Source: an uncultured Ligilactobacillus sp. (GTDB lineage: Bacteria > Bacillota > Bacilli > Lactobacillales > Lactobacillaceae). Taken from it: DNA of 64,000 bases. Below, one piece after another: positions 37,102 through 39,341 of the stretch. The notes beneath the pieces were generated by a model that worked only from the letters and a program-made list of their open reading frames with translations, was not told where the DNA came from and did not search any database. Position 1 is the first letter of the stretch. Each line of letters starts with the position of its first letter. The position numbers and the translations under genes were made by a program. Location: the NCBI GenBank assembly GCA_934201845.1, contig CAKPXA010000001.1, positions 124,001 to 188,000 of the forward strand, given 5' to 3'.

Positions 37102-37201
37102 CACACTTTGTCATAACTGGGTTCCGCCTCGCAGCCCCTTCCGCCCAGGTACCCTCACTTGGCAGACAAGCCTGGTACTCGGGGGCTAAGCGGCTCGTCT
37201 C
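37102..37201 (+). repeat. Array A, unit alpha (100 bp)
   Basis: Starts with a variant linker (CACACTTTGTCATAACTGGG). The body folds back on itself: GCC-CGC-AGCCCC against GGGGGCT-GCGGC, with GTACC/GGTAC and CTTG/CAAG inside. It corresponds to 38839-38958 in array B, which carries a 20-bp insertion. Confidence 0.85.
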
Positions 37202-37324
37202 CACACCTTGTCATAATCGGGTTCGGAGCGGCAATCGCCTGGAGCTAAGCACTGTCTTCCTAGACGAGGCAAGCTCGCCTTCGTCAGACAGAAGCTTAGC
37301 TTACGGCTCATACCCGCCGCTCCT
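37202..37324 (+). repeat. Array A, unit beta (123 bp)
   Basis: Linker variant with TAATCGGG. Outer stem GGAGCGGC (37225-37232) / GCCGCTCC (37316-37323) encloses AGCTAAGC / GCTTAGCT, GTCT / AGAC and GACGAGGC / GCCTTCGTC, so nearly the whole unit is one nested hairpin. Confidence 0.88.
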
Positions 37325-37448
37325 CACACCTTGTCATAACTGGGTTTCGCCTCGCATTCGCCCTATCACAAGCAGGGACTCCCTGGGCGAGTTGCACTCG
37401 CCTTCAGTCGTCCACATGCTTGTGTACGGGCTCATGGGCGCTCGTCTC
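37325..37448 (+). repeat. Array A, unit gamma (124 bp)
   Basis: Linker CACACCTTGTCATAACTGGG, then nested pairs GCCC/GGGC, CACAAGCA/TGCTTGTG, GGACT/AGTC-CC and the tip GGCGAG-TTGCA-CTCGCC. It recurs twice in array B. Confidence 0.88.
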
Positions 37449-37454
37449 CACACC

Positions 37455-37483
37455 TTGTCATTTCCCTTCTTTTTTGCTATCAT
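37455..37483 (+). promoter_or_regulatory. mnmA promoter whose -35 lies in the repeat linker
   Basis: The last, truncated linker of array A (from 37449) contains TTGTCA at 37455-37460; exactly 17 bp later comes TATCAT (37478-37483). The array therefore supplies the -35 box of mnmA. Confidence 0.6.
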
Positions 37484-37555
37484 AGAAAACACTGAAGAGG
37501 ACAACCTTCAATTGTTGGATTCAGAATTTGATGAAATGATGGTGAGTTTCTTAAT

Positions 37556-38683
37556 ATGACAGACAACAGCAGAATCCGCGTCGTCGTCGGAATGAGCGGC
37601 GGCGTGGACTCTTCCGTCTGTGCGTACCTGCTCAAGCAGCAGGGGTACGACGTTGTCGGCGTGTTCATGAAGAACTGGGACGATGAGAAGGACAGCGGCG
37701 TATGCACGGCCACGGAGGATTATCAGGACGTTGCGAAGGTGGCAGACGAAATCGGCATTCCGTATTATTCGGTCAACTTCGAAAAGGAATACTGGGACAG
37801 GGTGTTCACGTACTTCCTTGACGAGTACCGTCACGGCAGGACGCCGAATCCCGACGTCATGTGCAACAAGGAGGTCAAGTTCAAGGCGTTTCTCGACTAT
37901 GCCATGGAACTTGACGCCGATTACATCGCAATGGGACACTATGCGCAGATCAGGCGCGATGAGGACGGCACGGTGCATCTGATGCGCGGAGCCGACCGGA
38001 ACAAGGACCAGACTTATTTTCTGAGTCAGCTGTCCGGAAGCCAGCTCGAAAAGGCAATGTTCCCGATTGGCGGCATGCAGAAGAAGGAAGTGCGTGAAAT
38101 CGCGCGTAAGGCCGGTCTGGCCACGGCTGAGAAGAAGGATTCGACCGGTGTGTGCTTCATCGGCGAGAGGAACTTCAGCAAGTTCCTGAACGAGTTTCTT
38201 CCTGCCAAGCCCGGGAAGATGATGACGTTTGACGGCGAGTGCAAGGGCGAGCACTTCGGACTGATGAACTATACAATCGGTCAGAGAAGGGGCCTTGGCA
38301 TCGGCGGCAGCGGCAAGTCGAACGACCCGTGGTTCGTGGTCGGCAAGGACCTTTCAACGAACACGCTGTACGTCGGGCAGGGTTACCACAACGAGCATCT
38401 CTATGCAACAAGCCTTGATGCGACGCGTCTCAGCTTCGTCGCACCGATTGAGGACCGCGGACAAAGCTTCCACTGCACCGCCAAGTTCAGATACCGCCAG
38501 CAGGACACGGGCGTCACTGTGAAATTCAGTGCTGCGCGTGACAAGGTGGAGGTAATATTCGACGAGCCGGCACGTGCCATCACGCCCGGTCAGGAAATCG
38601 TCTTCTACGACGGTGAGGAGTGCCTGGGAAGCGGCACCATTGACTACGCCTACCAGAACGGACGTCTGCTTCAATACGTGTAG
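37556..38683 (+). CDS. mnmA: tRNA-uridine 2-sulfurtransferase MnmA
   Basis: 375-residue enzyme installing the 2-thio group at U34 of tRNA-Lys, -Glu and -Gln. The PP-loop SGGVDSS is at residues 14-20; the catalytic cysteines are Cys103 (DVMCNK) and Cys200 (STGVCFIG), and the C-terminal beta-barrel is present. The start follows GGTGAG at nine bases. It is the only gene between the two repeat arrays, which are direct near-identical copies. Sulfur is probably delivered by the desulfurase at 35546. Confidence 0.96.
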
Positions 38684-38739
38684 TCGGGCAATTTATGCCT
38701 TTGAAGGCCGCCGGAATGAAATGACGGTTCGGGTCCTGT

Positions 38740-38788
38740 CAGTGAAGATTTTCATTGGTGACAATGGAAATCTTCACTGTTTTTTTAT
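38740..38788 (+). terminator. Terminator after mnmA
   Basis: 17-position stem CAGTGAAGATTTTCATT (38740-38756) / AATGGAAATCTTCACTG (38763-38779) with one G-U pair, followed by seven T. Confidence 0.92.
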
Positions 38789-38838
38789 CTAACCATCAGT
38801 ACGTATTGAATGGTGTCCGAAGGCTGACCGCTCGTCTC

Positions 38839-38958
38839 CACACCTTGTCATAACTGGGTTCCGACTCGCAGCCCCTTCCGCCCAGGTACCCTCACTTGGC
38901 AGACAAGCCTGCCGGCGTTCGGGCAAGCCTGGTACTCGGGGGCTAAGCGGCTCGTCTC
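38839..38958 (+). repeat. Array B, unit alpha (120 bp, with 20-bp insertion)
   Basis: Same as the alpha unit of array A apart from one substitution in the body (CCGACTC for CCGCCTC), a changed linker position and an extra 20 bp at 38911-38930, flanked by AAGCCT duplications in the loop part. Confidence 0.85.
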
Positions 38959-39081
38959 CACACCTTGTCATAATCGGGTTCGGAGCGGCAATCGCCTGGA
39001 GCTAAGCACTGTCTTCCTAGACGAGGCAAGCTCGCCTTCGTCAGACAGAAGCTTAGCTTACGGCTCATACCCGCCGCTCCT
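38959..39081 (+). repeat. Array B, unit beta (123 bp)
   Basis: Identical by eye to the beta unit at 37202-37324. The outer stem is 38982-38989 / 39073-39080, the inner 39000-39007 / 39051-39058. Confidence 0.88.
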
Positions 39082-39205
39082 CACACCTTGTCATAACTGG
39101 GTTTCGCCTCGCATTCGCCCTATCACAAGCAGGGACTCCCTAGGCGAGTTGCACTCGCCTTCAGTCGTCCACATGCTTGTGTACGGGCTCATGGGCGCTC
39201 GGCTC
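39082..39205 (+). repeat. Array B, unit gamma 1 (124 bp)
   Basis: Matches 37325-37448 with only isolated substitutions (CCTAGGCG for CCTGGGCG; CTCGG for CTCGT). Confidence 0.88.
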
Positions 39206-39341
39206 CACACCTTGTCATAACTGGGTTTCGCCTCGCATTCGCCCTGTCACAAGCAGGGACTCCCTGGGCGAGTTGCACTCGCCTTCAGTCGTCCACATGC
39301 TTGTGTACGGGCTCATGAGCGCTCGGCTCCACACCTTGTTT
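39206..39341 (+). repeat. Array B, unit gamma 2 (124 bp) and truncated closing linker
   Basis: A tandem second gamma unit; CACAAGCA (39248-39255) pairs with TGCTTGTG (39298-39305). The array ends at a partial linker (CACACCTTGT, 39330-39339), just as array A ends at one. Confidence 0.88.

Follow-up and report, generated by a model that had tools for sequence, protein, structure and literature searches.

What are the long-hairpin repeats that stand on both sides of mnmA in this DNA, and does their position there carry any meaning? The window, the whole stretch of 64,000 nucleotides that was analysed, belongs to the family Lactobacillaceae and has a G+C content of 54.6%; its DUF1831 protein shares 89% identity with one from Ligilactobacillus ruminis. 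Around the repeats lie genes for an aminotransferase V, the DUF1831 protein, the tRNA 2-thiouridylase MnmA (37556..38683, plus strand; PF03054, 2.6e-85), a histidine phosphatase and a recD2-like helicase, with mnmA itself flanked by the repeats and outside the element. The initial annotation had described seven units in two arrays, each unit beginning with a linker, and a search for the linker bore this out: copies start at 37102, 37202, 37325, 38839, 38959, 39082 and 39206, each with at most two mismatches where three were allowed, and 100 dinucleotide shuffles contained none. The three unit classes also measured as claimed, at 100 or 120 bp (alpha), 123 bp (beta) and 124 bp (gamma).

Array 1 comprises alpha1 (100 bp, 37102..37201), beta1 (123 bp, 37202..37324) and gamma1 (124 bp, 37325..37448), and adjoins a terminator-like site behind the DUF1831 gene (37055..37083, plus strand). 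Array 2 follows a terminator-like site behind mnmA (38740..38779, plus strand) and comprises alpha2 (120 bp, 38839..38958), beta2 (123 bp, 38959..39081), gamma2 (124 bp, 39082..39205) and gamma3 (124 bp, 39206..39329). All units are assigned to the minus strand (see below). Both alphas and gamma1 were identified by linker search and folding, and gamma2 by linker search and pairwise comparison. The covariance model R1, built from 21 units, matched beta1 at 37200-37333 with 115.4 bits and gamma3 with 115.7 bits, both units being themselves part of the model. Beta2, assigned by R1 and pairwise comparison, is identical to beta1, and any two of the three gammas show 2-3 differences over 124 positions. 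A 295-nt stretch is common to both arrays at 99% identity (37167-37461 and 38924-39218); mnmA is thus enclosed by 295-bp direct repeats, an arrangement from which recombination could delete it. Alpha1 is probably decayed: it lacks 20 nt of the apex, apparently through a deletion between two copies of CAAGCCTG (judged by eye).

The bodies had been read as hairpins. Compared with dinucleotide shuffles, this held for four of the five units folded (z from -2.6 to -5.7 on the plus strand and from -1.8 to -5.2 on the minus strand) and failed for the 100-nt alpha (z -0.10 and 0.11, respectively). The strand on which the units were first described is probably not the relevant one. All 30 of the first units fold better on its complement, with isolated G·U pairs outnumbering A·C by 25:1, as do 107 of 111 units in a larger set (109 versus 18, p ~5e-17), whose members are related and include part of the first 30. 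The same strand is favoured by 52 of 54 units from Bacillales (25:5). Against this reading, G·U and A·C are nearly balanced over the 21 outer pairs alone (48 versus 46), where G·A stands at 79 and C·T at 4, and the search model could itself be biased towards G·U on the model's strand. On balance, folding points to the complement as probably the functional strand, which we call the element strand. Consequently, the truncated linkers with which the arrays were said to close (37449..37460 and 39330..39339, minus strand, read from the sequence) are present but probably mark the element's 5' end. At each opposite end, 3' on the element strand, lies a stub of a further unit, seen by eye: an outer-stem arm alone at ~37094-37099 in array 1 (minus strand), at the start of repeat family D2, and part of an alpha-like unit at ~38820-38838 in array 2 (minus strand).

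As the window copies are too alike, compensating changes in the stems can be tested only in relatives. Thirty units from the window and seven relative genomes have one common plan, in agreement with the earlier observation that unlike bodies follow the same design. From these we drew a structure, P0-P3, by hand; 22 and then 21 of the units were aligned, the 21-unit alignment with MAFFT. In the 21 units, 84.6% of P0-P3 cells are paired, and covariation is 0.541, compared with 0.176 in shuffled alignments and at most 0.157 with slid partners. Among 111 distinct units it reaches 0.705 (shuffled 0.186, slid at most 0.136), a figure from 112 matches realigned to R1 that leans to R1's structure. Fifty-four distinct Bacillales units, which took no part in model building and were found and aligned with the model, give 0.558 (shuffled 0.177, slid at most 0.146). 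Compensation in the stems, proposed by the initial annotation as a check, is therefore far above controls in both Lactobacillaceae and Bacillales.

The linker and plan also recur in other genomes, as the annotation's second check asked. A scan of genome contigs with a linker 15-mer matched at least 118 stretches; among the matches listed, a longer linker match was found at one locus, in Secundilactobacillus pentosiphilus, where the array is real. The linker pattern matched 11 of 397 sampled Lactobacillaceae genomes, seven of which contain real units by eye. R1 found matches in 114 of the same 397 (E<=1e-3), a lower bound because eight candidates were scored per genome under strict filters, and because three genomes that were empty in that search (G003, G011 and G013) later gave 26, 8 and 28 matches. 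With the model R2 and up to 108 candidates scored in each of 31 chosen genomes, four genomes had 108, 108, 107 and 107 matches out of 108 scored, twelve had 31-95, four had 3-28 (one of these a Bacillus, with three) and eleven had none. An even draw of 200 Bacilli (16 candidates each, E<=1e-5) yielded four matching genomes, two of them already found, and no match appeared in 96 genomes around a Lachnospiraceae genome at E<=1e-5. These E-values are rough, as calibration was short. The distribution of the family is patchy.

We also looked for copies on mobile DNA. Nine viral contigs matched the linker 15-mer, and no array was seen on them. BLAST found no match to the window array among phages and plasmids, and none among plasmids to the L119 array or to an array from Bacillales. 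A single unit from another genome (L172) matched three plasmids and no phage. Two of these plasmid pieces match R2 without the outer stems (model positions 22-101), one with a weak second match, and so represent partial copies. On plasmids of Secundilactobacillus paracollinoides and Levilactobacillus brevis, partial related hairpins, unannotated (L223 and L224), lie beside an MFS transporter gene.

In Bacillales, R2 matched 16 of 101 genomes at E<=1e-3, weakly (best 46 bits); this count may include false matches, since one locus (L317, genome G457) resembles an rRNA leader, standing just ahead of a 16S-like start. Of six Bacillales loci taken from R2, this one was left out of the folding and unit sets, and L318 was left out of the unit set because its array lies inside L324. 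Several copies are arranged in tandem at ~121-126 bp and have their own linker, GGAGCTGGACAAT...AAAAGCGGA. Most of 14 folded Bacillales units show, by eye, a GC pairing, a 3x3 purine loop, 7 bp, a 4-5-nt bulge, ~6 bp, more stems and a short loop, and simple Lactobacillaceae copies have, also by eye, the same plan of loops and helices. A BLAST search with a unit from one Bacillales genome returned 28 matches in that genome and none in 24 other Bacillales genomes; the sequence is thus not shared even where the plan is. We read the Bacillales copies as probably homologous to the Lactobacillaceae family, the alternative being a close analogue by convergence.

Where do copies sit relative to genes? 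The sample comprised the window and ~1.4 Mb from nine relatives, drawn from contigs known to carry matches (for G060 and G001, mostly around the matches), with genes called simply as longest ORFs. Of 101 R2 matches, 92 were used; eight weak or partial ones (L199, L212 at 12095, L213 at 14795, L215 at 10035, L217, L219 at 14628, L220 at 9861 and L247 at 351) and one truncated where its locus ends (L257, 1-72) were dropped. The 92 units form 63 arrays: 43 single, 14 double and six longer. Outside the window, the 5' gene lies on the same strand as the array in 43 cases and on the opposite strand in 12, with six unclear, and between tandem genes 26 arrays are sense versus eight antisense. With replication strands inferred from the GC skew, this sense share is alike for genes on the two strands (19 of 24 and 7 of 10). 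Sense arrays cluster at stop codons: 22 of 43, from six genomes, start between -4 and +8 nt of one, and 10 of 43, from four genomes, start exactly at -3, so that the match opens with the stop codon itself. About ten other arrays start right after a terminator-like T-run (by eye). In G199, which contributes the most arrays, two of ten sense arrays are at a stop codon.

The Bacillales context is more mixed. Among 30 arrays, the 5' gene is on the same strand in 11, on the opposite strand in 17 and unclear in two; taking as sense six units that follow a 23S end on their own strand would bring the sense count to 17 of the 28 classified arrays. Five of the 11 same-strand arrays start 0-8 nt after a stop codon. 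In one Bacillales genome, seven units lie directly behind the same 23S rRNA 3' end (L329, L331, two in L332, L333, L334 and L335), and for one of the seven Rfam verified the surrounding 23S and 5S. Elsewhere, a short array stands between a T-box leader and a gene that by eye resembles serS (L316:1501-1866).

The arrays at mnmA are antisense to both neighbours, an orientation relative to the 5' gene that recurs in 12 of the 55 arrays classified elsewhere. Among the 397 relatives searched at mnmA, the closest, G060, has the same three genes in the same order at 78% DNA identity and no array, with 82 and 78 unaligned nucleotides where the window has 411 and 681. The link between arrays and mnmA therefore looks like a local insertion, and from this comparison the mnmA arrays look like an antisense insertion that need not be functional. 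The apparent mnmA promoter reads TTGTGT-17-TATCAT at the empty site in G060 (spacing judged by eye) and TTGTCA-17-TATCAT in the window (37455..37483, plus strand), with the last linker supplying the -35 box. Similar use of the linker was seen by eye at two other loci. As a general role this was rejected, a -10 box standing at the right distance at 2 of 14 TTG-bearing array ends, the window's included.

Presence and absence also vary between species elsewhere. At one gene end, compared across a genus (gene found in 14 of 15 species), a unit sits at the TAA in 6 of 14, one of these sites being cut by a contig end, and 8 of 14 have no unit at that spot, one of the eight having related hairpins further on (by eye). 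An 8-bp target duplication is possible at one locus (L275, by eye); none is evident at mnmA, and no clean duplication was found overall. At five other loci in G060 (L245, L246, L248, L249 and L250), arrays are followed by ~0.4-0.9 kb of other repeats with TTTACGGACAAA/TTTGTCCGTAA motifs, so arrays can be parts of larger mosaics.

On the whole, we consider it rather probable that these are non-autonomous repeats of the RNA-hairpin type, settling at the ends of transcripts, with a REP- or BOX-like role and an architecture of their own. Each unit would be a single copy of such an interspersed repeat and would give a ~110-letter hairpin RNA of nearly fixed geometry. In simple copies this hairpin would be clamped by outer GC pairs, next to which come an internal loop of purines (often GGA/GGA) and a 7-8 bp stem, followed inward by a 4-nt 5' bulge or a 3/7 asymmetric loop, a 6-7 bp stem, more stems and a loop that is frequently 7 nt long. 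Copies would insert at the ends of transcription units, at stop codons, behind terminators and in the 23S-5S spacer, and tandem arrays would grow through the linker. Sense copies would form part of the 3' UTR, where the hairpin would most likely shield or mark the RNA 3' end; in the window, two arrays would have entered antisense around mnmA, and one would have altered a -35 box. In this reading the mobility itself, the transcription and any action on RNA are inferred. More tentatively, the hairpin could be a Bacilli-wide RNA shape read by a conserved host factor, for example of the RNase III/Mini-III type, and serve mRNAs and rRNA as a transferable 3'-end module, selected at scores of loci per genome with its sequence left free; we raise this as a minority possibility.

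The initial annotation had offered three guesses: a structured RNA, which the data favour, a substrate for a single-strand transposase and a protein-binding DNA array. The second corresponds to a purely selfish element in which one DNA strand folds as a transposase substrate, REP- or attC-like, and RNA is irrelevant. A single-stranded DNA substrate would account equally for strand polarity and covariation, and such an element would also suit the presence/absence between species and the near identity of copies from several places within the window and within G060. We nevertheless hold this unlikely, as orientation tracks gene sense on both inferred replication strands (in small numbers) and as the enzyme class searched, the Y1 transposases, is dispensable: PF01797 is missing from seven element-rich genomes with 50-108 copies scored in each. 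It is present in 14 of 29 genomes searched, nine of which are also element-rich, and the PF01797 search revealed no mobilising enzyme. Dependence on a Y1 transposase, whether as REP/RAYT or as an IS200/IS605 derivative, was rejected on the seven rich genomes.

The protein-binding array, in which the linker would be a binding site repeated every ~123 bp and the hairpin incidental, is very improbable. The linker is conserved within a lineage, evenly spaced and able to act as a -35 box; between lineages, however, it changes while the hairpin plan stays (by eye), strand polarity goes unexplained, and the scarcity of correctly spaced -10 boxes speaks against it. Template-switch correction is known for quasi-palindromes, and the units could be neutral debris whose arm complementarity is upheld by template switching alone, without function. 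The persistence of decayed alpha1 and the freely varying copy sequences would fit, but this reading predicts neither the excess of G·U over A·C, nor the loops and helix lengths common to Lactobacillaceae and Bacillales (by eye), nor the position at stop codons, and we regard it as quite improbable.

If the transcript-end reading is true, more than 100 sampled lactobacillus genomes, along with some Bacillus relatives, carry a transcript-end structure that is often abundant and apparently unannotated. With shape kept and sequence nearly free, it would be a natural experiment on what Gram-positive cells read in RNA hairpins. It could also cause related strains to differ in expression, and would be a starting point for deletions.

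How does the family compare with known systems? The initial annotation recognised no described family, and searches of Rfam and the literature likewise yielded none. In Rfam, the window gave no match at the gathering score and 36900-39500 none at E<=10; at 12 plus 6 other loci, sub-threshold mir-607 and Clostridiales-1 were the only matches on or near repeats, and the same searches found one TPP riboswitch and one T-box away from them. The literature search found no description of such a family; subscription papers were thinly covered, and one may exist. A coding role was rejected, as unit lengths are not all multiples of three and a protein search with the array ORFs found no homologue. A CRISPR array was rejected too, the bodies being recurrent and self-complementary rather than unlike one another as spacers are. 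The repeats have MITE-like traits: they are short, highly base-paired, without an evident gene and variably present.

The family is thus apparently undescribed, and is of the same kind as BOX, bcr and REP, the interspersed structured repeats. REP/BIME sequences are extragenic palindromes of 20-40 bp that occur in many copies and are associated with RAYT transposases. The present repeats are likewise many-copy extragenic palindromes, but have a period of 100-130 bp, which led us to reject their identity as REP/RAYT palindromes, and Y1 is missing from several rich genomes.

Three further systems were compared by description. BOX of Streptococcus pneumoniae is one composite repeat of boxA, a variable number of boxB and boxC, some copies of which are expressed (PMC3049150). 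Both are interspersed repeats of low-GC Firmicutes that form a hairpin if transcribed and have tandem inner modules; BOX is composite, whereas here every full tandem unit forms a hairpin on its own. The repeats bcr1-bcr18 of the Bacillus cereus group are intergenic, as are those of the present family; bcr1-bcr3 are MITE-like, and 84 of 165 and 62 of 155 copies lie within mRNA in two strains (PMC3446304). The stem-loop families Efa-1, Bhal-1 and Bcr1, with models of 163, 74 and 167 bp, are similarly intergenic, structured and from Firmicutes (PMC2267715). What seems special to the present family is that its architecture is kept across orders as linkers and stems change.
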